From positions 1 through 26,795 of the IMG/VR virus record IMGVR_UViG_3300032516_000161: 26,795 nt of DNA; one strand, written 5' to 3'. Origin of the DNA: a virus. Under the pieces are notes generated by a model that was given only the letters and a program-made list of their open reading frames with translations, was not told where the DNA came from and did not search any database. The translations under genes were made by a program, and so were the position numbers. Every line of letters begins with the position of its first letter. The stretch's first letter is position 1. Positions 4,337 to 26,086 of this stretch are shown here, piece by piece.

Positions 4337-5660
4337 ACTTAGGGGGCCTCTAATTCTGATGGATTATCATCAGAAGGTGATCAGGGAAGCCCTGTATCGC
4401 GATCCCATCACAGAGAGATTCAATTACAGTACCATCGTCTGGTCCGATATCAAAAAGTCCATCAAGAGCACAATTGCGGCTGCGGTTGCTCTCTATACGG
4501 CGTATCATACAGAGTGGGGCCAGATTATCCTCGTTGCTAATGACCTCGACCAGGCGGATAGCCGTGTAGGCTTCTACATCCGGAGAGCCATCGAGCTCCA
4601 TCCCCGAATGAAGGAGGAATGCAGGATTCGAGGGTACTCCATCCTTCTTCCCAACAAGGCCCAGATTCTATCGGTCCCTATCGATCCTTCGGGTGAGGCG
4701 GGGTCCAATGCGGATATGGTCGTATTCTCGGAGCTCTGGGGCGCTCATCAGGATGCCCAACGAAGGATGTGGACGGAGATGACGCTACCTCCGGCTAAGT
4801 TCGGGAAGTCATTCCGATGGATCGAAACATACGCTGGGTACTCGGGAGAGTCTCTTCTCCTCGAACAGCTATATGATAACGGCGTTCGTCAGGGGAAGAG
4901 GATCTGGGACGACCTCGAATTGTACCGAAACAACCGAATGTTGGTTCTGTGGAATACGACTCCTCGGTGCCCCTGGCAATCTTCAGAGTATTATGAATCA
5001 GAAGCCTCAATCCTCGATCCATCCGAATTCAGCCGAATCCACCAGAATCAGTGGATCAGCCCTCACGAAGCTTTCATACCAGCTGTATGGTGGGATGCAA
5101 TCCGGGAGAACCTCCCACCCCTTGGCGAACGCGAGCCTATGGTCATTGCTCTCGATGCTGCTACAACGGGCGACTCATTTGGGTTGGTGGGCGTTACTCG
5201 CCATCCTCAAAGATTCGGGGATCCGTCGATCCGGATCGTCAAGAAATGGACCCCCGTAGGTGGGAAGATCAATTTCTTGGGAACTACGGAAGATCCAGGC
5301 CCGGAGCTCTTTGTTAGGGATCTTTGCAAGAAGTTCAACGTAGTTCAGGTATCTTTCGATCCCTACCAGCTCTACGATATGTCTGAGAGGTTGAAGAGGG
5401 ATGGGGTGTCTTGGTGCGAGCCTTTCAACCAGGGTGGAGATCGTCTTACGGCCGATAAGCAGTTTTACGATGTTGTCGTCCAGAAGAGGCTATCCCACGA
5501 TGGTAACCAAGATCTTCGGGAGCATGTTCTGAACGCCGATCGGGAAGCCGATACTTCCTCTCGGAAGCTTCGGATCGTAAAGAGATCTGCTCTTCTGAAG
5601 GTGGACCTCGCAGTTGCAGCCTCTATGGCTATCCATAGATGCCTCGATTTGAATTTATGA
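4185..5660 (+). CDS. terL: Terminase large subunit (packaging ATPase-nuclease)
   Basis: This 491-aa protein is the motor that pumps DNA through the portal and cuts it. A Walker A-like loop DIKKSIKST spans residues 88-96, with K94 the expected phosphate-binding Lys. A Walker B-like strand MVVFSELW is at 178-185 with E183 as the probable catalytic Glu. The RNase H-like nuclease has three acidic positions: D324 (VIALDAA), D392 (SFDPYQ) and D474 (LKVDLAVAAS). The usual Walker A Gly before Lys is Ile here. GAGGA 9 bases before ATG 4185 supports the start despite the 152-base overlap with the upstream gene. A later ATG near 4272 is the main alternative. A normal ribosome binding site follows for the next gene. 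Confidence 0.92.
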   Translation: MAKPSAGSPTRLDNWLLDQLAESLDPQISMEDPRTPMEPVEWIQKFFYVPELRGPLILMDYHQKVIREALYRDPITERFNYSTIVWSDIKKSIKSTIAAAVALYTAYHTEWGQIILVANDLDQADSRVGFYIRRAIELHPRMKEECRIRGYSILLPNKAQILSVPIDPSGEAGSNADMVVFSELWGAHQDAQRRMWTEMTLPPAKFGKSFRWIETYAGYSGESLLLEQLYDNGVRQGKRIWDDLELYRNNRMLVLWNTTPRCPWQSSEYYESEASILDPSEFSRIHQNQWISPHEAFIPAVWWDAIRENLPPLGEREPMVIALDAATTGDSFGLVGVTRHPQRFGDPSIRIVKKWTPVGGKINFLGTTEDPGPELFVRDLCKKFNVVQVSFDPYQLYDMSERLKRDGVSWCEPFNQGGDRLTADKQFYDVVVQKRLSHDGNQDLREHVLNADREADTSSRKLRIVKRSALLKVDLAVAASMAIHRCLDLNL

Positions 5661-7815: not shown

Positions 7816-8832
7816 ATGATTTACGGATTTGATATCAGTGCATGGGAGACGATTACGGACGCAAATGCGTTTATCAACGACGGGCCTAAAAAGCTAGAGT
7901 TTGGCTACATGCGTGCCGGCATCGGAAATTTTGATGATGAAAAGTACCGCCAGTTTTTCGAGCAGTTGAAGCACATTCAGGCCGTCGGCGGAGTAACTCT
8001 GCTAGGCGCGTACCAGTTTATGACTTACACGTATGGCGGAGGCGGAGCCGCGCAAGTGCAAAATATGTGGAGCCTGATCAGTGCAGGCGGGGTGGAGTTT
8101 CAATTACCCCCGGCGTTGGACCTCGAATACGAGGCATTCATGAGTAACGGGGTGCGGTTGACACGACCGATACCTGACCCGATCTATTATCTAGATCATA
8201 CTGTGATGCCTGCAATCGCATGGTTGAAAGCAAAAATGGGCAGGCTGCCAGTCATTTACACCGGCGCGTATTTCGCGAAGGATGTGTTATTTCACGGGTT
8301 GGGCATTGCGAAGTATGCCGACCTGTTCAATTGTCCGTTATGGGTGGCGGCATGGAACAACGTGCCCGAACCGATCACGAACGGAACTTTCCCGATGAAG
8401 GGTGCGAGCTTTGATCTAACCCAGGCATGGCCGAAATATGCCTTCTGGCAATTCTACGGTGATTACCCCAAAGGCGGGTATCCCAAATGGCCGGGGATCA
8501 ATGCGCTCGATTTGAACATTTGGCCGGGGACCAGGGCGGAACTCCGCGCGTTCTGTATGAGTGGCGCGCCGATCCCTGATCCTGACATCCCCCCGGTGGT
8601 TTATGAGGAATATGTCAAGATCCCGCCTCTATATCGGTATATTCGAAGTAAGCCGCAGGTAGACTCGGCCGCGGTCATTACGACGTTGAAGGCTGGTCAG
8701 ACCTACAAGATCCTGGAACGGGTTGCAGTCTCACCAAATCAGGTGTGGGCACGGATTGCGGTCAATGGATTTGTCTGTGTATCCATTGGCGATAAACAGT
8801 ATGTCGAAGTCATCAAGGTTGAAAAGGAGTAA
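7816..8832 (+). CDS. GH25-family lysozyme (endolysin) with SH3-like C-terminal domain
   Basis: A 338-aa muramidase-type peptidoglycan hydrolase. Residues 1 to about 245 form the GH25 barrel: YGFDIS with D6, the PALDLEYE strand carrying D102 and E104 (the acid in the family's D-x-E motif), YQFMTY, WQFYGD at 211-216 and LDLN with D232. Residues about 262-338 resemble an SH3b cell-wall binding module (RYIRSKPQVDSAAVITTLK and onward). There is no signal peptide, so it would need a holin or be virion-carried. It lies between portal and head genes, not in a lysis cassette. By my count 15 of its 33 Ala codons are GCG, against 1 of 36 in the portal gene, which suggests recent acquisition. Confidence 0.9.
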   Translation: MIYGFDISAWETITDANAFINDGPKKLEFGYMRAGIGNFDDEKYRQFFEQLKHIQAVGGVTLLGAYQFMTYTYGGGGAAQVQNMWSLISAGGVEFQLPPALDLEYEAFMSNGVRLTRPIPDPIYYLDHTVMPAIAWLKAKMGRLPVIYTGAYFAKDVLFHGLGIAKYADLFNCPLWVAAWNNVPEPITNGTFPMKGASFDLTQAWPKYAFWQFYGDYPKGGYPKWPGINALDLNIWPGTRAELRAFCMSGAPIPDPDIPPVVYEEYVKIPPLYRYIRSKPQVDSAAVITTLKAGQTYKILERVAVSPNQVWARIAVNGFVCVSIGDKQYVEVIKVEKE

Positions 8833-11946: not shown

Positions 11947-14898
11947 ATGGCTATTCGCCTAGTTACTGAAGCCGACTGCATATTAAGAGGTTCGGTGTTT
12001 GCGCCAAACGCATACACAGTATCCTTTTGGGCATATATCGAGCTTTTCGACAGTACTTGGCGAGACCTTTTCATATTCAGCGATAATGGTAGTGTTGGTG
12101 ATCATCTTCAGATATATCAACAGTCTGGTCCGAATAACAGACTTAGCCTATATACCGACAGCGGATCAGACTTCTATTCGTCGAGTTCTTTCTCGACGAA
12201 TACATGGTATCACATTGGGCTAATTCGAAGTAGCGCAACAGCTCAGGTATTGTATGTCAACGGTACCTCAGAGACTACTAACACATATAACATCGGGACG
12301 AGAACTGGACCGAATCCTGGATACGGATGGGGGAAGGACTTTGTTGGTGGTGGTACCCAGGCGCAAGCGCGAATATTCGCAGTAAAAATCTGGGATACCA
12401 ATCTCTCGGCTGACGAAATTTTACAAGAAGCCGGATCGATTGCCCCAAAGAGAACGGCTAACCTTTACGCTTGGCATCCCATTTTATCTTCTTCCGATAG
12501 GCTTACAGATTACTCGGGAAATGGGAGAGACTTATCTTCTGTTGGGACCCTTTCTAATGTAGATGAACCTCCTGTCTCTTGGGGTTCGTCTCCAATTGTC
12601 ATCCCGTGGGTAAGTAGTGTAGGCTTTTCTCCGTCTGTTACGGAATCTGTTACTGTTGGTGAGTCTGTCAATGTTGAACGAATTGGTGGTTTTGTTTTAG
12701 ATGTCAGTGTTACAGAGTCAGTAAGTGTTGGCGAGAATGTAGACGTTTACGCAGGCGTCTACACCCAGACGGTATACGACACGGCAGGATCGAACAACTG
12801 GACTCCAAACTTCGGTATAACCGAAGTCATCGTCGAGTTATGGGGCGGTGGTGGTGCTGGTGGTGGCACAACGACTAATACTGCAAGTCGAGGTGGTGGT
12901 GGAGCGGGTGGAGCCTATGTTAAGAGTAAATTAGCGCTTACAGCCGGCACCACTTATACAACAGTTGTTGCTGCGTTAACTGCTACTTCCTCTGGAGATG
13001 GCGCTGCTGGGAACCCTTCATCTTTTGGTGGTACACTAGCAGTCGCAGCTGGTGGTCCCGGTGGGCAGGCATACCAGAATGGTGCTGCAGCTGGTACAGG
13101 TACGACCGCTGGGAGTACTGGGCAATCCCCAACTCCGTATGCTGGTGGTAATGGTTCTGCTGGTGGTACAGGTACGACTGGTGGCGCTGGCGGTGGTGGT
13201 GCAGGGTCAACTGGTGCAGGCGGTAACGCATCAGGCAATACTGCGGGATCGGGTACAACTCTCAACGGTGGCAATGGTGCGACTGGGCGTTCAAGCGTTG
13301 GGGCTGGCACTGCTGGTAATACCGCCGGTGGTGGTGGGAGTTCGGGCTATACGACAACTAGCACGGACCGTCTTGGTGGCGCCGGAGCAATCGGACGTGC
13401 AGTTCTAAGCTATGTTCGCTATCAACCCTATAAAGTAGAGAACGTCACTTGCGGTGAAGAAGTTGCAGTTCAGATCACTGGTGGGGCTACGGGACCCACC
13501 CCTTCTGTAGTTGATACAATAACGGCCGGAGAATCGACTGCGGTACAGCTCGCGACGAATCTGACTGCAAATGCTACTGAGGCGGCAATCGTTGGTGAAG
13601 AGACGAAGCTCCTGCTGAGGGTCGAAGTAAGCGCGGTCCAAGCAGTAACAGTTGGAGAGGTAGCTACTCTACAGACGCTCCCCTTAGGAGTATCCGTTAC
13701 CCAAGGGGTGACGGTTGGTGAGACAGAGCGAGACGTCGAATTACTGAGTCTGAGGGTCAGCTTATCAGAGGGAGTAACGGTTGGTGAGAGTGCGAGTGCT
13801 TCGATGGGAGCTCTCCCTCCACAAACAGTCAATGTTATAGATGCGAGTACAGTTGGCGAGGTAGTCTCGTCTCGTCTCGAAGGATCCCTAGTAGCATCTG
13901 TCTTAGATGCTATCTCGACGGGAGAATCGAGATCAGTTCAGATTAGTGGGAACCTTCTTGTAGGGAGAACTGAATCGGTAGTTGTTGAAGAGACCTTAGA
14001 CTCCCGAATGGGATCTGAGAGTGTCTTGAGTGTCGAGAATATTACGACCGGTGAGAGTGTTCAGTCCTCTATAGGGTCGCTCTCAGTCCTCGCAATACAG
14101 CCAGTTACTGTTGGAGAAGAGTCAGTTGCCCAGATTGTTGCGATCGGGGTATACTACGTAAACGTCTCCGATGGTGTCTCGATCGGGGAGTCTGTCAGCC
14201 TCCAGCAGGCTTCATCCCTTCGTGCTAGTTCGGTCGAGTCGACGACATTAGGCGAAGTTGTTACTGTTGGTCCTCTCGGTCTCTCTTCGTCGGTTACTCA
14301 GGGAGTCACCGTTGGTGAGGTTCCTACTGTACTCGAATCACCTCCTCTCGTAAGTGCTACTCAGAGTGTCGGGGTAGGCGAGGTTGTTTCGTCTCGTCTG
14401 AGTGATCTTCGGACTGACGTAGTCGAGGGAGTGACGGTTGGAGAGTCGTCTTCAGTACTCCTCCCTGCAGTAGGGTCACTCTACGTAAACGTTGTCGAAT
14501 CAGTCTCGGTTGGAGAGACTGTTGGGGTTGTTGAGGGTACTCTTCGAACATCTGTATCTGATTCGATCGGTATCGGTGAGGCTGTATCTCTGTTGATCGT
14601 CACCGCAGGGATTCTGCCAATAAGTGTGTCTGATGGAGTAGCAGTTACTGAGGAGATCCACATCATGGGTCTCGGGGGTACGGTTATTCCCCCAGTGATA
14701 CTCGGCCCTGGGGTGATGTATCATCGAACCTACGGAGACTTACCAAAGTGGTTACGACCTCAACCGAAAGTTCATATCCCTCAGTATTTCGAAGTAGTCT
14801 CGGTTGCACCTCCATCTCCGAATCGTCGACGGTATACTCGAGACGAAGACGACGATGAGGTCGTTCTTCTCTACCTCTTAGCATCGGATCTCCTATGA
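11947..14898 (+). CDS. Giant fibre/adhesin-like protein: lectin-like, Gly-rich and VTVGE-repeat domains
   Basis: A 983-aa probable receptor-binding or virion surface protein. Residues about 22-205 form a concanavalin-like (LamG-type) domain: YTVSFWAYIE, WYHIGLIRS, VLYVNGT and the closing strand YAWHPILSSSDRLTDYSGNG. Two repeat units (VTESVTVGESVNV near 231, VTESVSVGENVDV near 255) precede a Gly-rich domain at about 297-490 opening EVIVELWGGGGAGGG, as in phage adhesin tips. About 19 further units of 20-24 residues follow (about 497-907), centred on an E/D/Q-S/G-V-T/S-V-GE core. The C-terminal 75 residues are unrelated and end in an acidic RDEDDDEVV segment. Repeats are diverged at DNA level. 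The stop overlaps the next ATG. Confidence 0.75.
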   Translation: MAIRLVTEADCILRGSVFAPNAYTVSFWAYIELFDSTWRDLFIFSDNGSVGDHLQIYQQSGPNNRLSLYTDSGSDFYSSSSFSTNTWYHIGLIRSSATAQVLYVNGTSETTNTYNIGTRTGPNPGYGWGKDFVGGGTQAQARIFAVKIWDTNLSADEILQEAGSIAPKRTANLYAWHPILSSSDRLTDYSGNGRDLSSVGTLSNVDEPPVSWGSSPIVIPWVSSVGFSPSVTESVTVGESVNVERIGGFVLDVSVTESVSVGENVDVYAGVYTQTVYDTAGSNNWTPNFGITEVIVELWGGGGAGGGTTTNTASRGGGGAGGAYVKSKLALTAGTTYTTVVAALTATSSGDGAAGNPSSFGGTLAVAAGGPGGQAYQNGAAAGTGTTAGSTGQSPTPYAGGNGSAGGTGTTGGAGGGGAGSTGAGGNASGNTAGSGTTLNGGNGATGRSSVGAGTAGNTAGGGGSSGYTTTSTDRLGGAGAIGRAVLSYVRYQPYKVENVTCGEEVAVQITGGATGPTPSVVDTITAGESTAVQLATNLTANATEAAIVGEETKLLLRVEVSAVQAVTVGEVATLQTLPLGVSVTQGVTVGETERDVELLSLRVSLSEGVTVGESASASMGALPPQTVNVIDASTVGEVVSSRLEGSLVASVLDAISTGESRSVQISGNLLVGRTESVVVEETLDSRMGSESVLSVENITTGESVQSSIGSLSVLAIQPVTVGEESVAQIVAIGVYYVNVSDGVSIGESVSLQQASSLRASSVESTTLGEVVTVGPLGLSSSVTQGVTVGEVPTVLESPPLVSATQSVGVGEVVSSRLSDLRTDVVEGVTVGESSSVLLPAVGSLYVNVVESVSVGETVGVVEGTLRTSVSDSIGIGEAVSLLIVTAGILPISVSDGVAVTEEIHIMGLGGTVIPPVILGPGVMYHRTYGDLPKWLRPQPKVHIPQYFEVVSVAPPSPNRRRYTRDEDDDEVVLLYLLASDLL

Positions 14899-16170: not shown

Positions 16171-17325
16171 ATGAAGAATACTGAAGGGTTTCTAGATCGG
16201 GCTAAGAGTCTAATCCGATCCCTTTTAGGAACTCCTCCGACTGAGGAGGCCACGAGTGGGATTGCTACTCTGAAGGGACTCGATGGTCAAGACTACTGGT
16301 TCGGGTGGGTTTCGAATATGTGGAGGGATCGAGACCGTCGGTCAGACCCCCTACATGGAGGTGAGATCATCGCCTCTGAGGCCCATAAAGAGTACGTCGA
16401 TTGGCTCGACCAGAATCCAGATCAAGCCCCAGAATTTTGGTGCTGGCATGAACTGGGGTCTGCACGAAAAAGTCGTGCCACTTGGTGGGACTTCTCCAAT
16501 GGGTTCCTGATGATGATGGGCCCACTAACCCCAGAGGAAGCGGAAGGCCTGAAAAATGCACCAGGTCCAGTTGGGATGTCTCATGGATTCTTCGGGTTGA
16601 AGGATATCTCCTCTGGGTCAATCGTGAAGTATCGATCATACGAAGTCTCTGATCTCCCTCGAGATTGGGCAGCGAATCCTTGGACGGATCTGAGAACTCT
16701 TCAGAAGGAGGTTGAACTAATGGCGTTCAATCCAATTAAGCGGTCGTATATTGCTAAAGTTTTGGGAGAAGAGAAAGTTGGTGAACTCGAGAGAGACACT
16801 GAGTCCCGAGCTAAGTCCTTGATGGAACTGGGGATTGAGTTCAAAGACTCCGAGTCTGATCAGGGACCTCCGGTATCTATCCCAGAACCACCTGCAGCAG
16901 ACGTCGAGGCCCCAATCGAGGAATCGAAGGGTGAAGACATCACTGCAGAGTCGCCATCGGTCGAGACTCCTATCAGTGATCCCGAAGTAGACCCTGCTGA
17001 GGCTACGATGGCGATCCTTCGGTCTCTCGTCGATGCTGTCAAACAGCTCTCCGACAACTTCGAAGCTCTCGAGGCGCAAGTCGACAGCCTAAGTACTCGG
17101 ACGAAGTCCCTTCAGAAGAGTGACGACGATCGGTTAGCTGAATTGATGACTCCTCGGCTGGCACCATCTGTAGTCGCAGGTCTCCAGAGGAAATCGGCCT
17201 CTCAGAGTCCTGAGACAGAAGTCGAGGGAGATGAGTCAGGGGGCCCAACACTCCCTGGTCAAGTGGGAGTTGATCCCTCTGTCGCATGGGTCGCGCAAGC
17301 GATTCCTCCTATTCGGAATTCCTAA
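16171..17325 (+). CDS. Putative prohead protease fused to scaffold-like region
   Basis: The start is placed at ATG 16171 because AAAGGAGAG precedes it, rather than 24 bases earlier inside the upstream gene. Residues about 40-185 (DYWFGWVSNMWRDRD, GGEIIASEAHKEYVDWLD, H93 in FWCWHELG, GMSHGFFG with S137-H138, YRSYEVSDLPRDWAANP) resemble the XkdF/prohead protease type: an early strand, a substrate-side helix, an SHG turn and the E-x-S-x-LP-x-x-x-AANP closing segment. Residues 230-275 are acidic and Pro-rich, and 280-326 form a heptad-like coiled coil as in scaffolds. It lies directly before the major capsid gene, the expected site. The catalytic set is not proven. Confidence 0.65.
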   Translation: MKNTEGFLDRAKSLIRSLLGTPPTEEATSGIATLKGLDGQDYWFGWVSNMWRDRDRRSDPLHGGEIIASEAHKEYVDWLDQNPDQAPEFWCWHELGSARKSRATWWDFSNGFLMMMGPLTPEEAEGLKNAPGPVGMSHGFFGLKDISSGSIVKYRSYEVSDLPRDWAANPWTDLRTLQKEVELMAFNPIKRSYIAKVLGEEKVGELERDTESRAKSLMELGIEFKDSESDQGPPVSIPEPPAADVEAPIEESKGEDITAESPSVETPISDPEVDPAEATMAILRSLVDAVKQLSDNFEALEAQVDSLSTRTKSLQKSDDDRLAELMTPRLAPSVVAGLQRKSASQSPETEVEGDESGGPTLPGQVGVDPSVAWVAQAIPPIRNS

Positions 17326-17339
17326 GAGGAGTTTGTAAG

Positions 17340-18788
17340 ATGAAGAAAACTGTCGATACTTCTGAGCTGATGACTGCATTATCAGCTATCATGGGAGAAA
17401 AGGATGCTCCGACTGGGACGCCTTCGACCCCTTACTACCATGGCCCAAATGGCATCTTCGGGATGTATGGCCTCGAACGGTCTCTGATCTCGACGCGGGT
17501 CCAGCCGATGGGATTCGCAGACCAGATTCCCGTAGTTGCCTCGACTGATATGAATCCCATGTTTGGGTACATCACGGGTTTCCGTGCTGGTACCGGAGCA
17601 CGCCCGACCAACGTCTGCGATAACTCGCCGACCCCAGGACCAATCAAGACCTGTGTTCAGACCGCTCAGTTCGGTCGTTGGTCTATGTCGACCCGCGAGC
17701 TAGAATTGACTCGGATTGGTCAGTCGATCAATCGTGCCGAGTTCTTCGATCTTCAGATTCTCAATGATCCCCTGGTGACTGCAATGGGAGGGATCTTCCC
17801 CGACATGCCATCTGAGACGGCTATGCTGTTGGGTCGTGAGATCGTCGCACGGATGATCGAATTAGGTGTCTCCCTTCAGGAGTGGATCAGCTCGGTTCTG
17901 TATACTGGAAATCCCGCCAACAATACTGTTGGTGGAGGGTATATGGAGTTCCCCGGTCTCGACATCTTGATCGGGACGACCAAAGTCGATGCACTGACTG
18001 GCCAGTCCTGCCCGAGTCTCGCATCCTATATCTACAATTTCGGATATCGGATGGCGAACGATACGGGAATGAACCCCACGATCGTTCATGTGGTCACCAA
18101 TGCACTCCGCCAGGTGAAGCATAATGCGTCCCGGATGAACTTCGGTTCGACTGTTTGGGCGATCGTCATGCGCGAGAATCTCTTCTACGAACTGACCAAT
18201 GTTTGGCCGTGTGTCTACTCGACCTCGGGATGCTTGGTTCCGTCGGGCGTCGATAACAATGTCGACGTCATGTACAATCTTCAGTTCCGGGATGCCATGC
18301 GCGTTGGTCAGTACCTTTTGGTCGATGGTATGCAGGTTCCGGTCATCTTCGACGATGCAATCTTCGAGGATACACCGACTGATAATGCTACCATCAAGCC
18401 TGGTCAGTATGCCTCGGATATCTACATCATCCCGATGACTGTTCGGGGTGGAACGCCGGTCACCTTCTGGCAGACCTTCGATTACTCGAAGGGTGTCGCT
18501 CCAGGTATCTCCGACGGGAAGCTCTCGAATATCTTCTGGACTGACGCTGGTCGGTACCTCTGGAATTACGATTTCAAGAATACCTGCATCATTCATACCT
18601 GCAGGTTCCAACCTCGGTTGATTCTCCTCACGCCTCATTTAGCGTGCCGGATTACCAACGTGAAGTACCAGCCGATCGAGCATACCCGTGACTCCCTGAT
18701 CACTCAACCGTACTTCACCGACGGTGGTGTGTTCTATCGCCAGGCGCCGAAGTTCTACTCGGACTGGAATCCGACTACTCCTGCATAG
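17340..18788 (+). CDS. Major capsid protein
   Basis: A 482-aa protein starting MKKTVDTSELMTALSAIMG, with AAGAGGA before ATG 17340. It follows the protease/scaffold gene. The sequence is mixed alpha/beta with capsid-like segments: IPVVASTDMNPMFGYITGFRAGTGARP, GRWSMSTRELELTRIGQSINRAEFFD and a long helix PSETAMLLGREIVARMIELG typical of the HK97-fold spine. RVGQYLLVDGMQVPVIFDD and IYIIPMTVRGGTPVTFWQTFDY fit the P and A domains. The product is Cys-containing, and the fold assignment is from context and pattern rather than a recognised subfamily. It is among the genes with the most regular codon use in the window, as expected for high expression. Confidence 0.85.
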   Translation: MKKTVDTSELMTALSAIMGEKDAPTGTPSTPYYHGPNGIFGMYGLERSLISTRVQPMGFADQIPVVASTDMNPMFGYITGFRAGTGARPTNVCDNSPTPGPIKTCVQTAQFGRWSMSTRELELTRIGQSINRAEFFDLQILNDPLVTAMGGIFPDMPSETAMLLGREIVARMIELGVSLQEWISSVLYTGNPANNTVGGGYMEFPGLDILIGTTKVDALTGQSCPSLASYIYNFGYRMANDTGMNPTIVHVVTNALRQVKHNASRMNFGSTVWAIVMRENLFYELTNVWPCVYSTSGCLVPSGVDNNVDVMYNLQFRDAMRVGQYLLVDGMQVPVIFDDAIFEDTPTDNATIKPGQYASDIYIIPMTVRGGTPVTFWQTFDYSKGVAPGISDGKLSNIFWTDAGRYLWNYDFKNTCIIHTCRFQPRLILLTPHLACRITNVKYQPIEHTRDSLITQPYFTDGGVFYRQAPKFYSDWNPTTPA

Positions 18789-18798
18789 GAGGGTGATT

Positions 18799-21528
18799 AT
18801 GTCTTTGAAGCTCTACATCTCGCCCCAGTACCGCAACCCTGACCGTGCCGAGGGTGGGATCCGAAGGGTCGTAGAAGCACAAGCGAGGTACCTACCTCAG
18901 TTCGGGATTGAGATTGTTGATCATCCCGACGAATCTGATCTTACAGCAGTCCACGCCGGGAGTCCAACGAGGGAACTCGTTGGCCCCGTCGTGGCCCACT
19001 GCCATGGTCTCTATTGGAATGGAGATTTGTGGCCCGATCAGTTCTTTCAATATAATCGAGAGGTTATAGCGAATCTTCGGGTCGCTGTTGGGTGGACTGC
19101 ACCCTCTAAATGGGTTGCCGAGAATATGTGCCGAGGGATGTTGATTACTCCGAGGGTAATCTACCATGGGGTAGACCCCTCGGAGTGGTCCCCTTCTGGA
19201 GGTACTCGAAGTTATGTACTCTGGAACAAGGCACGTCAGGATACTGTCTCGAATCCCTGGGACGTAAACGAACTAGCGGAACATCTTCCCGAGATTCAAT
19301 TTGTTACCACGTTCGGTGAAACTGCGCGGAATGTAAGAGTAATCGGGAAGTCTAACTTTCCCGAGATGAAGAAGATTATTCAGGGTGCAGGAGCCTACTT
19401 ATCGACTACGAAGGAAACCTTCGGGATCGGCACCCTCGAAGCAATGGCGTCGGGTGTACCAGTCTATGGTTGGGACTGGGGTGGCAATTCGGAGATAGTC
19501 AAACAGGGCAAGACAGGATACTTAGTAAAGCCTGGGGACTATAGTCGTCTGGCAGAGACTATCCGTGAAACTTGGGACAACAGGAAGTCTCTTGGAGAGT
19601 CTGCCAGGGCTGACGTCGAAGAGAATTGGACCTGGGAAGCACGAATTTCGGAATATGCTGACTACTATCGAGAGGTGTATGAAGAGGAGAACGATAGATC
19701 GATTGATGTTTCAGTGATTGTTCCCTGCTACAATCTCGGGAGATACTTAGGGTCCTGTCTCGAGTCTGTCCAACGTCAGACATTCGAGAATTTCGAATGT
19801 ATTGTTGTCGATGACCATTCGACTGACAACTCGGTCGAGATTGCCCAAGAGTGGTGCAAGACCGACTCGAGATTCTCGGTTGTGGAGCAAGAGACTAATC
19901 AAGGAGTAGCACAGGCTCGGAATCGAGGGTTCAAGGTGAGCAAGGGAAAGTTCCTTCTCTACCTCGACGCCGACGATCAATTGACCCCTACGGGATTAGA
20001 GATTTTGCATGGGGAGCTGATCAAAGACAAGGGACTCCGAATAGCATATGGTGGTATCGATCTGATCTCTGATGATGGTCAACCTCAAGGTCGATCTGAA
20101 TGGCCTACACAATTCGACTGGTATTTCCAGATTGCACATATGGATCAAATTCCGTATTGTGCGATGATGAGCCGTGCAGTAATGAGGGAATCTGGAGGGT
20201 ATCGATCTCGAGTTTGGTTGACAGAGGATGCCGAGTTTTGGACGAGGGTTACCTCGTTTGGATTCACGGCTCGAAAGGTAACACAAGAGTCGATCTTTCG
20301 ATATCGTCTTCGGCCCAACAGTCGAATTCGAACTGCTGGAGGAGAGGGAAATTGGGAAGCATGGTTCCCTTGGTCTCTGGCGAAGTCCCTCAAAGAGGGT
20401 CAATCGATCATAACTTCGCTCAATGCGAGGATTCACCCTCATGGTGAAAGAGTTCCCTTTGGGTCGATTGGGGAACCTGCAAAGGGTTTGTTTGCTTGGA
20501 ATGTCTACGATTTCTCGAACCCAACCATCTCGGTAGTCGTTCCCTGTTCAGTATACCATCAAGGATTTATTGTTGATGCACTCGACAGTGTGATTGCACA
20601 GACCTACTTGAATTGGGAGGTTGTCGTTGTGGATGACTCTCCCGAGGGATCGCTCTCCCTCTGGGGACATCCCTACGCAAGGGTTATCAAGACTTTCGGG
20701 AGGGGTCCTGCACATGCACGAAATGAAGGTGCCAAGATAGCTCGAGGGGAAGTTCTGGTTTTTCTCGATGCAGATGATGTTCTTCTTCCCTGGGCTCTAG
20801 ATCATATGATTCGAGTCTATCGAGAGAGTGAGGGGTATCTTGTCTACACAGATTGGGGTGTGTCGACCGATACACTCGAGATCAAGAAGTTTCTAAAAGC
20901 ACCCGATGAGGTCTGCTCGAAGATCCTCGATCAGATGCCCCATGTTGTTACTTGTATGGTCCCGAAGTCTGCGCACGAGAAAATCGGCGGTTTCGACGAA
21001 GCTTTGCGAGGTTGGGAAGATTGGGATTACTACCTTCACTTGGCTGCAGAGGGAGTATGTTCGATTCGTCTTCCCGAACCATGTATGATCTACCGTGCTG
21101 CTCTCGGGGAGCAACGTGAGAAGTCCCTTGCTCTGAAGTCCGATCTAGTTAACGATCTCTACAGAAAATGGGATGTGTTTTACAAAGGAGAGAGGTCTAT
21201 GTCATGTTCGTCGTGTGGGCAAAAGTCTGTATCTATGGCTCATATCCCTCCCCCCGATACGCCAGCATCTGCTAACATAACTGGAGCAGTTCGACTGACG
21301 TATACGGGCCCAGGGGATGGACGTCAAACCTTTAGGGGTCAATCGACGGGGTCGATCTATCGGTTCTCTTTCGGGGACACGAAATGGGTCGACGAAGCTG
21401 ACGCTGAGTACTTCTTGACTCTGAGTCGATCGGATCAGGCCTTCTTTCAGAAAGAAGTCCTCGAGGTCCCAATTGGTCAGATCGAGGAGACTGCACGCGA
21501 ATTTTCAACGAAACCATCAGGTGCATAA
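18799..21528 (+). CDS. Multidomain glycosyltransferase (GT4 + GT2 + GT2) fused to a small virion-like C-terminal domain
   Basis: A 909-aa protein with GGAGGG before ATG 18799. Residues about 1-290 are a GT-B, GT4-type domain with the E-x7-E pair E206/E214 in KETFGIGTLEAMASG. Residues 303-430 are a GT2 domain: VSVIVPCYNLGRYLGSCLES, IVVDDHSTD, and DxD in YLDADD (D390, D392). Residues about 574-700 are a second GT2 domain: ISVVVPC, VVVVDDSPE and FLDADD (D657, D659). From 801 on the protein changes to a Cys-pair start (MSCSSCGQKS) and a beta-rich domain (AVRLTYTGPGDGRQTFRGQS). An AAAGGAG site before in-frame ATG 21199 suggests that this domain is also made alone. Located just after the capsid gene. 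Confidence 0.85.
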   Translation: MSLKLYISPQYRNPDRAEGGIRRVVEAQARYLPQFGIEIVDHPDESDLTAVHAGSPTRELVGPVVAHCHGLYWNGDLWPDQFFQYNREVIANLRVAVGWTAPSKWVAENMCRGMLITPRVIYHGVDPSEWSPSGGTRSYVLWNKARQDTVSNPWDVNELAEHLPEIQFVTTFGETARNVRVIGKSNFPEMKKIIQGAGAYLSTTKETFGIGTLEAMASGVPVYGWDWGGNSEIVKQGKTGYLVKPGDYSRLAETIRETWDNRKSLGESARADVEENWTWEARISEYADYYREVYEEENDRSIDVSVIVPCYNLGRYLGSCLESVQRQTFENFECIVVDDHSTDNSVEIAQEWCKTDSRFSVVEQETNQGVAQARNRGFKVSKGKFLLYLDADDQLTPTGLEILHGELIKDKGLRIAYGGIDLISDDGQPQGRSEWPTQFDWYFQIAHMDQIPYCAMMSRAVMRESGGYRSRVWLTEDAEFWTRVTSFGFTARKVTQESIFRYRLRPNSRIRTAGGEGNWEAWFPWSLAKSLKEGQSIITSLNARIHPHGERVPFGSIGEPAKGLFAWNVYDFSNPTISVVVPCSVYHQGFIVDALDSVIAQTYLNWEVVVVDDSPEGSLSLWGHPYARVIKTFGRGPAHARNEGAKIARGEVLVFLDADDVLLPWALDHMIRVYRESEGYLVYTDWGVSTDTLEIKKFLKAPDEVCSKILDQMPHVVTCMVPKSAHEKIGGFDEALRGWEDWDYYLHLAAEGVCSIRLPEPCMIYRAALGEQREKSLALKSDLVNDLYRKWDVFYKGERSMSCSSCGQKSVSMAHIPPPDTPASANITGAVRLTYTGPGDGRQTFRGQSTGSIYRFSFGDTKWVDEADAEYFLTLSRSDQAFFQKEVLEVPIGQIEETAREFSTKPSGA
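21199..21528 (+). CDS. Internal in-frame start: small head/neck-like protein (109 aa), possibly made separately
   Basis: Within the giant glycosyltransferase frame, AAAGGAGAGAGG (21184-21195) lies 3-8 bases before ATG 21199, matching the start context of independent genes here. The product begins MSCSSCGQKSVSMAHIPPP, followed by VRLTYTGPGDGRQTFRGQST, YRFSFGDTKWVDEADAEYFL and a short acidic tail. The pattern V-R-L-x-Y-x-G, G-x-x-TG/STG-x-x-Y-x-F and V-D-x-x-DA-x-x-F/L recurs in small proteins of phage head-neck clusters. Either the upstream stop was lost, fusing two genes, or two products come from one frame. Function inferred from pattern and position. Confidence 0.5.
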   Translation: MSCSSCGQKSVSMAHIPPPDTPASANITGAVRLTYTGPGDGRQTFRGQSTGSIYRFSFGDTKWVDEADAEYFLTLSRSDQAFFQKEVLEVPIGQIEETAREFSTKPSGA

Positions 21529-22226: not shown

Positions 22227-22787
22227 ATGTCAAGATACGCCTTAGATTTGTCAGATGCTTTTGGATACTTGAGATCCGCCGAAGTCGATCTTCTCTCGAG
22301 GAGTGTTCGTCGACTGAAGGGATCGGCTATTGTTGTCAATCTCGGCGCAGGGACAGGGACGTCGAGTCTTACGATTGTCGAAACACGTCCAGATCTAGCC
22401 GATACTTTGTGGACAGTCGATATTTCAGAGGGAGGTCCTCTAGGAGGTCTTCAAAATGAAGTAAACGCTTTCTTCCCAACGGGGTTGAAAATGCCCCATC
22501 AGATCCTGGGAGACTCCCTCACCGTAGGACGTCTGTGGAAAGACAAAATCGACTTTCTGATGATCGATGACGACCACTCATCGGAACATCTCCATGAAGA
22601 GATCGATGTGTGGTGTCGACATGTTCGATCAGGGGGTCGAGTAGCTTTTCATGACTATGGCTCAGTCTTCTGGCCTGGTGTTCAGAGCGAAGTCGACGAC
22701 TTTCTGAAGGTCCCAGGAGTCGAAGTGTTCGAACATCAGGAAACCCTCATTGTTGTAGACCTCATGAAGACCTTCAAGGGGTGGTAA
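22227..22787 (+). CDS. Class I SAM-dependent methyltransferase (Methyltransf_24-like)
   Basis: A 186-aa methyltransferase with motif I VVNLGAGTGTSSL (36-48), strand 2 end LWTVDIS (61-67), and the strand 4-5 region DFLMIDDDHSSEHLHEEID followed by SGGRVAFHDYGS. The MIDDDHSxEHxxxDIDxW pattern is typical of the Methyltransf_24/CmcI-like group that acts on sugars, small molecules or antibiotic cores. The start follows the previous stop directly (TAAATG) and the end overlaps the next gene (TAATG). It is unlike the methyltransferase at 9307, so two methyltransferases of different kinds occur in one morphogenesis operon. Substrate unknown. Confidence 0.85.
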   Translation: MSRYALDLSDAFGYLRSAEVDLLSRSVRRLKGSAIVVNLGAGTGTSSLTIVETRPDLADTLWTVDISEGGPLGGLQNEVNAFFPTGLKMPHQILGDSLTVGRLWKDKIDFLMIDDDHSSEHLHEEIDVWCRHVRSGGRVAFHDYGSVFWPGVQSEVDDFLKVPGVEVFEHQETLIVVDLMKTFKGW

Positions 22788-23110
22788 TGACTGGCTCGGA
22801 GTTTGTAGTGTATGCTCTTGCCGTCTGGAGACTCACATCCTTGATCTCGAAAGAACGGGGACCTTTCGACATCTTCGTTCGTCTTCGACGGTCGGTTGGG
22901 ATCTTACCGGCGGAGGATGGATCACCTCTCTCTTGGTCTGATCAAATGCCAGCAAATCTGATCGTATGCCCATGGTGCTTATCTGTTTGGATTGGTGTAA
23001 TATGGGTCATTGCGATTTTTATCAACCCAGAGATTATGATATGGATCTCTCTCCCTCTTTCACTCAGTGCTGTGGCTATCCTGATTCAGTCAGGGGTCGG
23101 GAAGGAGTAG
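22787..23110 (+). CDS. DUF1360-like small membrane protein
   Basis: A 107-aa protein with the pattern of the DUF1360 family: an N-terminal helix ending LAVWRLTSLISKERGPFDIF, where R-L-T is followed by a charged stretch, and a C-x-x-C in LIVCPWCLSVWIGVIWVIAIF (C61, C64) opening a membrane helix. A third hydrophobic segment (IMIWISLPLSLSAVAILI) follows, so two or three membrane passes are expected. The ATG shares the TAA of the methyltransferase. DUF1360 has no known activity. Its location between modification and neck genes is odd for a membrane protein. Confidence 0.8.
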   Translation: MTGSEFVVYALAVWRLTSLISKERGPFDIFVRLRRSVGILPAEDGSPLSWSDQMPANLIVCPWCLSVWIGVIWVIAIFINPEIMIWISLPLSLSAVAILIQSGVGKE

Positions 23111-23113
23111 ATA

Positions 23114-24289
23114 ATGGCTCGTGCATCTATTCGAACATGGCTCCCTCTTGATCGATGGGCCCAACTTATTGGAGGGATAAACCCCCTTCATTTCAATCAG
23201 CTATTCCTCTCGAATCTCCCGAATTGTGGGAGTGTATGGTATCAATGGGAATGGCAGGCATCAGACCAAGTAAGTCGGGAAGAGATCGCCCAGGCAATCC
23301 ACAGTGCTGAAGAGATGATTTCGACTGAGGTAGGGTATAATCTTCTTCCCGATTGGTCGAAGGATGTCGACCTAGTTCCCACAAAGTATATGGATCCCTC
23401 GATGGGGATCAGTCCACCCCTCTCGATTGGATATCGTCTCAAGACAATCGAGATCCCGACTGCGTACTATATTCAGGGGGGAGTTCGAGCTGTAGCATCG
23501 ATCTCGCTTGGTGCAGCGGTTACAACACACGATCTCGACGGGGATGGGTGGTCGGAGACATGTAGGGTCTCTGTAACTTCGAGTATCGACCCTAACGAGA
23601 TTCGACTATTCTTTTCGGGACATTCTGGGAGTCCTGAGTGGGAGATTCGACCAATCTCGATCTCGGGAACGTCTCCGAACTACGTTCTCGAGTTCAAGAG
23701 ATGGTTGATGGTCAAGCAGACCCTTCTAGAGAGAATGAACACTACTCCTCTCGATGCTTCGGATTCAGCATCCTTCGAGACGACTGTTGATGTGTACCGT
23801 GTATATACGGACCCCTCAGACCAAGCCGAGCTAATCTACTCGCGAGATATCGGAGGGTCTTGGGATATGGAGACTGGTGTTCTCGAAGGAGTAGATCCTC
23901 GTCTAGGGATCGTCTCGTACACCCCAGGGACATGGGATCCAACAACAGAGACGTACCTATCGACATCGATAGCCTGCCGAGATCCCGACAGGGTGAAGTT
24001 CAACTATCTTTCGGGATATCGACTCAACTCGTCACTCCACACGATGGATCCCTTTTGGGAGAAGGCTGTTGCGTATTTCTCGATTGCATTTCTATCTCGA
24101 TCAGTCTGTGACTGTTCGAACATCTCCGATTTTGTAGACCACTGGAAAGAAGATCTCGCGATGATCGTTCCCAGCAGTGTCAGTTATCAGCTGCCATACG
24201 AAATGGTGAAGAATCCCTTTGGGACAGCACGAGGCGCACTTTTCGCATGGCAAGCTTGCCATCAGAATGGGAGGAAGATTACTCGATGA
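23114..24289 (+). CDS. Head-tail adaptor / neck protein with inserted beta domain
   Basis: A 391-aa protein. The first 90 residues have the adaptor signature SREEIAQAIHSAEEMISTEVGY followed by LLPDW, matching the N-terminal helices of gp6/gp15-type connector proteins that attach to the portal. The middle, about 100-290, is beta-rich and holds a calcium-loop-like DLDGDGWSE at 138-146 and repeated strand-turn segments. The last 90 residues return to helices (DPFWEKAVAYFSIAFLSRSVCDCSN), as expected if one adaptor fold was interrupted by a surface domain. Position before the tube and after the capsid region fits the neck. The ATG is 3 bases after the previous stop and the end overlaps the next gene (ATGA). 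Confidence 0.7.
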   Translation: MARASIRTWLPLDRWAQLIGGINPLHFNQLFLSNLPNCGSVWYQWEWQASDQVSREEIAQAIHSAEEMISTEVGYNLLPDWSKDVDLVPTKYMDPSMGISPPLSIGYRLKTIEIPTAYYIQGGVRAVASISLGAAVTTHDLDGDGWSETCRVSVTSSIDPNEIRLFFSGHSGSPEWEIRPISISGTSPNYVLEFKRWLMVKQTLLERMNTTPLDASDSASFETTVDVYRVYTDPSDQAELIYSRDIGGSWDMETGVLEGVDPRLGIVSYTPGTWDPTTETYLSTSIACRDPDRVKFNYLSGYRLNSSLHTMDPFWEKAVAYFSIAFLSRSVCDCSNISDFVDHWKEDLAMIVPSSVSYQLPYEMVKNPFGTARGALFAWQACHQNGRKITR

Positions 24290-24592: not shown

Positions 24593-26086
24593 ATGGCTAA
24601 GAATCCGATCCATGCGGGCAGTGCTCGTATCTGGGTGATTGAAGGGGGTGTAGGCCCCAATCGATCGCCGACATACATGGGGCGTGCCGCAATCGGGACG
24701 AGCAGTTTCAACTTTGGTGAAGCCACCAAGGTCGAAGAGCCCGATCCAACAGCGTACGACCAGTTCATCGAAGTCGACTCGATCGCGGGTGCTCAGGAGC
24801 GTCCAACCACATCGATTCGTACTCGGTACTCGTCAGATCTGAGTGACCTTCTTCGACTCGCACGGAAGAAGTGTCGATTAGATCTTCATGTTCATCTGGG
24901 AAAGTGCCGTGACCCCCAGGACTTCAATGGTGGCTGGGAGAAGATTCGTGTCTATCCTGATGGTAAGATCTCGACTTGGGCCGACGAGAATTCGTCTGCG
25001 ATGGAGTCTGGTGACAATGCATCAGCGACCGAGCAGGTCGATCTCTCCGCACGGGATATCTACGAGATCGGCTGGCTCGAGTTCTCCCAAGTCGGTGCAG
25101 CCCAGTCGGTTCGGGAAGTTCTCGATATGGTCATCTGTGACCAGCTCTCCTGCGGTGGAGAATGTGGGAATGCATCTGATGGGTACAATAAGGTCTTTGG
25201 ACTGATTGCACCCTTAGTAGGGTCCGTGGGTGCATCGCCCCGTGTGGTCTTCTCGTCTGATGGGTTTGCGACGGCCGATTGGGATGATGTCTCGACCTTG
25301 ACGAATTCGTCTACAGCTACGACGATCCTATGTATCGGCTCGAACATCGTAGTCGTCTCCGATTCGGGATTATCTCTCTCGTATACCAATCGTGAACTCC
25401 TGCTCGCGGGAGCACCCGTCTGGGTTCAATCGACTACTGGGTTCGTGGCTGCTCGGGGTGGGACCTGTGGGGTCGTTGCCGATGCACGTCATACTTGGAT
25501 CGGTGGCAAAGCGGGGTATATCTACTTTACCTCGGATCCCTCGGCGGGTGTTACAGTTGCATCTTCGGGGAGCCTGACGAACCAGGATATCAACAAGATG
25601 GCAGCATACGATGACGAGAATGTCGTCGCCGTTGGGAACCTGAATGCTGTTCTCTTTACCCGGGATGGAGTAAATTGGTCGTTTGTTACCGGTCCGGCTA
25701 GTGGGGTAAACCTTACGGCTGTAGCCTGTATTGGTCGGGGTGTCTGGATCGTTGGGTGTTCCAATGGTGCAGTGTACTCTACGGAGACCTATGGGTCTAC
25801 CTGGAAGCTTCATACCCTCCCAGTAACGATGACTGCCATCCAGGACATCAAGTTCGTAGACGAGACAGTTGGGTACCTGATTGGATCGGCTTCGACTCGT
25901 GGGTATATGTTCCGGACGGTGTGTGGAGGTAACTCTTGGTATGCACTTCCCGAACGAGTCGGGGCATCCGTCCCTCTCAATGACAAAATGGATAACCTGG
26001 CTGTTGCCAGGGGTGTTCACAACTTAGTCTTCGCCGGTGGACTCGCGGATAATGGTACCTCGGGCTTCATCGTCAAAGGAGCGTAA
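24593..26086 (+). CDS. Major tail (tube) protein fused to a C-terminal beta-propeller
   Basis: AGGAGGAGT before ATG 24593 is among the strongest start signals here, fitting a highly expressed protein. Residues 1 to about 185 (MAKNPIHAGSARIWVIEGG, VEVDSIAGAQERPTTSIRTRY-like strands, ARDIYEIGWLEFSQVG) match a tail-tube fold. Residues about 200-497 form a repeat with Asp-box-like ends: VVFSSDGFATADWDDV, YIYFTSDP, AVLFTRDGVNWSF, AVYSTETYGSTWKLH and YMFRTVCGGNSWYAL. This spacing is that of BNR/Ycf48-type propeller blades, about six. A tube subunit carrying a propeller would coat the whole tail. The tail role rests on position ahead of the chaperone. Confidence 0.75.
   Translation: MAKNPIHAGSARIWVIEGGVGPNRSPTYMGRAAIGTSSFNFGEATKVEEPDPTAYDQFIEVDSIAGAQERPTTSIRTRYSSDLSDLLRLARKKCRLDLHVHLGKCRDPQDFNGGWEKIRVYPDGKISTWADENSSAMESGDNASATEQVDLSARDIYEIGWLEFSQVGAAQSVREVLDMVICDQLSCGGECGNASDGYNKVFGLIAPLVGSVGASPRVVFSSDGFATADWDDVSTLTNSSTATTILCIGSNIVVVSDSGLSLSYTNRELLLAGAPVWVQSTTGFVAARGGTCGVVADARHTWIGGKAGYIYFTSDPSAGVTVASSGSLTNQDINKMAAYDDENVVAVGNLNAVLFTRDGVNWSFVTGPASGVNLTAVACIGRGVWIVGCSNGAVYSTETYGSTWKLHTLPVTMTAIQDIKFVDETVGYLIGSASTRGYMFRTVCGGNSWYALPERVGASVPLNDKMDNLAVARGVHNLVFAGGLADNGTSGFIVKGA

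Follow-up and report, generated by a model that had tools for sequence, protein, structure and literature searches.

A conserved in-frame start codon at a domain boundary suggests a two-product gene for a glycosyltransferase array and a head-region protein in uncultured phages

The window analyzed here is a stretch of 26,795 nucleotides of a virus record (IMG/VR record IMGVR_UViG_3300032516_000161). Its features, together with those of two relatives, are listed in Table 1. A single open reading frame runs uninterrupted from ATG 18799 to the TAA at 21526-21528, with no internal stop codon. Pfam matched residues 176-264 of its product to GT4 glycosyltransferases (PF00534/PF13692) and two stretches to GT2 (PF00535, E 9e-56), with 188.9 bits for PF00535 (curated cut-off 23.3) and 51.1 for PF13692 (cut-off 27). 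The GT4 domain has its EX7E motif (E206/E214) and each GT2 domain its LDADD motif (residues 389-393 and 656-660), all complete and without variation among the relatives described below. With Pfam scores above the curated cut-offs and complete catalytic motifs, the domains were assigned to the GT4 and GT2 families. The reading frame and the Pfam results agree with the initial annotation, made from the sequence alone, which had described a GT4 and two GT2 domains followed in the same frame by a Cys-pair/beta domain from residue 801.

Table 1. Features of the window and free copies of the small protein in two relatives (L104, L109). SD, Shine-Dalgarno sequence.
Feature	Position	Strand	Evidence or remark
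Terminase	4185 (window)		
Portal, weak match	6076 (window)		
GH25-type endolysin with SH3 domain	7816-8832		Directly after portal gene, an unusual position
983-aa ORF with many SVTESVTVGE-type repeats	11947-14898		Between portal and head genes
Putative major capsid protein	17286..18788	+	Position, size, conservation; true start probably ATG 17340
Fused ORF, 909 aa, GT4-GT2-GT2-tail	18799..21528	+	SD AGGAGGG directly 5'
GT4-type glycosyltransferase domain, residues 1-295	18799..19683	+	Pfam PF00534/PF13692; EX7E complete
First GT2 domain, residues ~304-545	19708..20433	+	PF00535; LDADD
Second GT2 domain and C-terminal helix, residues ~575-800	20521..21198	+	PF00535, second stretch; LDADD
Internal SD AAAGGAG	21184..21190	+	8 nt 5' of ATG 21199; kept in relatives
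Internal start codon, in frame, for the free small protein	21199..21201	+	Boundary start in 64/67 fused relatives
Small domain/free 109-aa protein with MSCSSC Cys pair followed by beta domain	21199..21528	+	AlphaFold2 model
DUF1360 membrane protein	22781..23110	+	PF07098; after tail in 50/55 relatives
Putative neck/head-tail connector gene	23114..24289	+	Synteny; after tail in 44/55 relatives
Putative tail protein, C-terminal YCF48/BNR-like repeats	24593-26086		PF14870, weak; kept in relatives
Tandem free small-protein copies, two	L104:10622-11076		After fused copy without Cys motif
Free small-protein copy, one, cut by end of stretch	L109:21246-21413		After fused copy without Cys motif

ATG 21199 encodes residue 801 and thus lies at the domain boundary. 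The predicted SD pairing energy at this codon is -8.0 kcal/mol, in line with the values of real starts in the window (-10.7 for the glycosyltransferase gene, -7.6 for the 23114 gene and -7.2 for the 26089 gene). Each of the 13 other in-frame ATGs of the ORF has a weaker SD. The AAAGGAG and in-frame ATG that had been pointed out initially are therefore present, and both the comparison with the 13 ATGs and their recurrence in the relatives place them above chance.

Relatives were collected by several scans. A protein scan yielded L002 (49% identity), and a scan with the gene at the capsid position yielded L003, with an 876-aa ORF of identical layout. A three-sequence profile recovered 59 viral loci, a profile of the C-terminal small domain (the tail) added L076/L077 and the bacterial MAG contig L082, and a capsid-gene profile gave 80 further loci. 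After removal of duplicates, glycosyltransferase and small domain were found in one frame in 67 distinct relatives from many metagenomes, the window included; median GT2 identity is 36% over the 54 sequences in the tree. L002 was counted as fused, with a frameshift or deletion in its second GT2 domain near position 5020 that may be an assembly fault. An assembly or base-calling error that erased a stop codon and so merged two ordinary genes was ruled out because the same open frame recurs in these 67 relatives; separate genes in six relatives are in its favor, and we regard it as extremely improbable. The fusion itself, on which the initial annotation had been conditional, thus holds. In L056, L060 and L062, the GT4 domain is encoded by a separate ORF and both GT2 domains remain together; the link between GT2 and tail is kept in L056 and L060 despite the lost GT4-GT2 link.

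Used alone as a query, the tail gave no matches in viral contigs or phages, an 11-row alignment contained no usable stretch, and a further scan returned only fused relatives that had been collected before. Cultured phages gave no match to capsid and neck genes taken from the relatives, and plasmids none to the glycosyltransferase fusion of one relative, so that no cultured relative is known here. Among 395 genomes from the phylum of the Desulfuromonadales MAG, the sole occurrence of the tail was in the known phage contig.

Of the 67 fused relatives, 64 have a start codon at the very first position of the Cys domain (58 ATG, 5 GTG, 1 TTG). Where the boundary residue is valine its codon is always GTG (5/5), and the single leucine is encoded by TTG, which points to conservation of the start rather than of methionine. 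Mean SD pairing at the boundary was -7.38 kcal/mol, as against -2.46 at the remaining ATGs in frame within these ORFs (n = 1176), and these, like all the boundary SD statistics, are values from related and hence non-independent sequences. An energy of -3.5 or lower was reached by all 64 boundary starts vs 27% of the 1176 other ATGs, and one of -7 or lower by 56% vs 3%. Synonymous recoding with each ORF's own codon usage weakened the boundary signal to -5.62 (Wilcoxon p 2.7e-8). The difference was also seen in a replicate set of 13 relatives from later, independent scans (p 0.0085) and in a thinned set of 11 relatives below 45% identity (p 0.0024).

These data also bear on whether the long form alone matters, the boundary start and its SD being a relic of the fusion or a by-product of Lys, Glu and Gly codons that yields little free protein. 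Amino acids rich in K, E and G do give part of the boundary signal, and the recoded value of -5.6 would allow them to explain much of it; moreover, L103, which is fused and carries the Cys motif, has no boundary start and is the sole unexplained exception. However, the start is kept at a median identity of about 36%, with GTG and TTG as the only valine and leucine codons, the SD exceeds its synonymous controls in both the thinned and the replicate set, and free paralogues supply the start where the fused copy has lost it. We therefore consider this explanation improbable. The gene carries an internal ribosome-binding site and start at a domain boundary, at a position kept in the relatives, as in two-product enzymes. 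That one mRNA yields both the long form and a free 109-aa protein, as initially proposed, is very probable from the comparison of relatives.

The tail was modeled by AlphaFold2 with a pLDDT of 86-95 over residues 31-80. Pfam, PHROG and NCBIfam gave no confident match for it; it did not match the YqbF, FluMu_N or gpFI families and thus has no significant sequence similarity to them. VIA-align gave Z 5.2 for YqbF (rmsd 2.0 over 50 residues) and Z 4.0 for the C-terminal domain of lambda gpFI, where values below 8 can reflect a common arrangement. The Foldseek list includes HI1506 at E 1.1 and holds zero hits below E 0.001; GINS and primase domains also appear in the fold-match lists of the tail. 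Given these low scores, the likeness to YqbF, HI1506 and gpFI is a lead and not a membership. The predicted beta domain may be weakly similar in fold to YqbF of the B. subtilis skin element, HI1506 of FluMu and lambda gpFI. In their phages these three proteins are each encoded directly after the capsid gene, and the small protein occupies this same place, apart from an inserted sugar cassette. Twelve relatives have helix-hairpin-helix C-termini, and HeH-like C-terminal extensions are a further likeness of some relatives to this group. A few tails gave weak matches to the phage domains DUF7196 and DUF7302 (E 0.005-0.009), of which DUF7196 also begins with a Cys motif. To our knowledge, fusion to a glycosyltransferase is not known for YqbF, HI1506 or gpFI, nor for DUF7196 or DUF7302. 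For lambda FI, genetic and two-hybrid evidence indicates interaction with the capsid protein E (PMC3224144).

The putative capsid gene had no family match, PHROGs included, so that the names 'capsid' and 'neck' are given by gene order. In 55 loci this order is putative capsid gene, sugar cassette, glycosyltransferase-tail fusion, DUF1360, neck gene and further tail genes. In the capsid-gene scan, glycosyltransferase and then tail were found wherever the neck gene was reached, and in such loci the small domain lies just before DUF1360 or the neck gene. In the 55 loci and the capsid-gene scan the small domain is thus placed between capsid and neck, the capsid being identified by position only. 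In the relatives, the cassette that separates the capsid gene from the neck gene encodes an epimerase, a DegT aminotransferase, sulfotransferases, a GT10 enzyme and a capsular-polysaccharide family protein. The initial description of the small domain as a virion protein of neck type is moderately supported by its position between capsid and neck and by the weak likeness to YqbF, HI1506 and gpFI, although no confident family match accompanies them.

In six relatives (L062, L082, L097, L100, L110 and L114) the small protein is set apart from the glycosyltransferase by a stop codon or a frameshift. In L082, the glycosyltransferase stop overlaps the small-protein start (TAATG), and the small protein begins at the equivalent methionine. 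In L062, L082 and L114, the small protein has a separate gene within the same structural operon. L062 and L082 are nested within the fused part of the GT2 tree (L097, L100, L110 and L114 are outside the tree), so that their separation looks secondary. Relatives with a stop before the small-protein start had been named in the initial annotation as the finding that would speak against it. They exist in these six but support the free product and not an error, since the two placed in the tree nest among fused relatives and, in the clearest cases, the free start is at the corresponding site. The six also indicate that the tethered enzyme is dispensable.

L097, L100 and L110 (L111 is the same sequence as L110) have a UGA at the glycosyltransferase/tail junction (near 21092, 16201 and 12248, respectively), after which the tail continues in frame, and this codon is a candidate for selenocysteine insertion or readthrough. 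In L097 and L100, an ATG with a strong SD lies upstream of the UGA, and hairpins begin 19-22 nt after it. The homologue L103 has a cysteine (PRRS-C) at a similar place. No tRNA-Sec above the cut-off was found in the contigs of L097, L100 and L110, and one was found in the MAG holding L082.

A different arrangement is seen in L104 and L109, where the fused copy has neither the boundary start nor the Cys motif and free paralogues lie directly 3' of it. The free paralogues begin with MGCGC (L104, L109) and MGCRC (L104); here the Cys pair accompanies the free form. The simplest reading of these sequences is that duplication let different copies take the fused and the free role. Both forms look selected, as judged by the boundary start with its SD, the split relatives and these paralogues.

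The fate of the Cys pair also suits a role of the small protein as glycan acceptor, through its N-terminal cysteines or a Ser/Thr-rich linker, with the fusion keeping enzyme and acceptor together and the glycosylated free protein serving as a head or neck glycoprotein. The pair is N-terminal in the free form and is lost from the fused copy where free paralogues exist, and sulfotransferases and sugar genes are present in the same operon. However, no acceptor motif was shown, the fused copy that lacks the cysteines still has a conserved beta domain, and Cys glycosylation is known from few systems only, so that we consider an acceptor role improbable.

The main rival explanation is that the free domain serves the enzyme: extra copies of it would multimerize with the long form, as a ring or a tetramer, and the complex would bind the acceptor with greater avidity; the small protein would not be a virion component itself. 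This is exactly how LysIME-EF1 and other single-gene endolysins behave (PMC7098653, PMC9430671), and the conserved fusion and internal start fit it equally well. Its probability is reduced by the separate small-protein genes in the structural operons of L062, L082 and L114, by the two free paralogues retained in L104, and by the adjacency to the neck gene and the likeness to YqbF, HI1506 and gpFI, which point to a role of its own. We judge it unlikely, while giving it more weight than the readings discussed above.

The explanation that we favor, by a narrow measure, is a two-product gene that encodes both a glycosyltransferase array tethered to the assembling head and a free head protein. Sequence comparison shows the fused frame, the internal start and its conservation, a separately encoded free protein in some relatives, and the place in the operon. 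Production of both forms, a location of the small protein in or on the virion, docking of the fused copy and a virion protein as substrate are inferred. Translation from ATG 18799 would give a three-domain glycosyltransferase ending in a small head-region protein, and the internal SD and ATG 21199 would give the small protein alone. The free protein would fill a YqbF/HI1506/gpFI-type place in head or neck assembly, and the long form would dock via the same surface and so bring the enzyme to the assembling head. There it could build a glycan on the capsid or neighboring proteins, which the sugar-modifying enzymes of the same operon may supply or decorate. The targeting of glycosyltransferases to the particle, as suggested in the initial annotation, is plausible.

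More broadly, we propose tentatively, with slightly less than an even chance, that uncultured tailed phages of a large and ancient group tether a multi-domain glycosyltransferase to the assembling head by a C-terminal copy of a head protein and obtain the untethered head protein from the same gene. If true, glycosylation would be recruited to the particle in a scaffold-like manner by a virus-encoded factor. The fusion of an enzyme and a head-region domain, with a second start kept over deep divergence, offers a concrete and testable mechanism by which phage glycosyltransferases could be led to their targets on the virion. It also suggests that uncultured phages may commonly bear elaborate glycans on their virions. 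Natural controls exist in the split and the duplicated relatives, where the two roles are separable.

Among known systems, mycobacteriophages such as Che8 and Rita likewise encode glycosyltransferases, and glycans are described on their major capsid proteins (summarized in PMC11256854). In the phage described there, the transferases are separate genes near the 3' genome end, with no tethering domain described. The design had initially been considered undescribed; this applies to its use with a glycosyltransferase, for which we found no precedent in the literature covered, but not to the coding trick, which is known from LysIME-EF1 and lambda C/Nu3. In the part of the literature covered, no report combined internal-start coding with phage capsid glycosylation. 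Two-polypeptide endolysins encoded by a single gene, such as LysIME-EF1 and others (PMC7098653, PMC9430671) and Ms6 LysA (PMC3111421), are similar in that an in-frame internal ribosome-binding site and start give, besides the full phage enzyme, its C-terminal domain by itself. Unlike the gene studied here, they are lytic, involve neither sugar transfer nor a head-region domain, and have a free domain that multimerizes with the enzyme. In lambda C/Nu3, the scaffold is encoded in frame inside the protease (Shaw and Murialdo, 1980, as cited in PMC8508860), so that there, too, the C-terminal part of an enzyme is additionally made by itself and acts in assembly. The lambda pair is a protease and scaffold rather than a glycosyltransferase, is unrelated in sequence to the GT4/GT2 domains found here and is located before the capsid gene; the coding design alone is held in common. 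In lambda, the protease enters the procapsid by way of the part that it shares with the scaffold.
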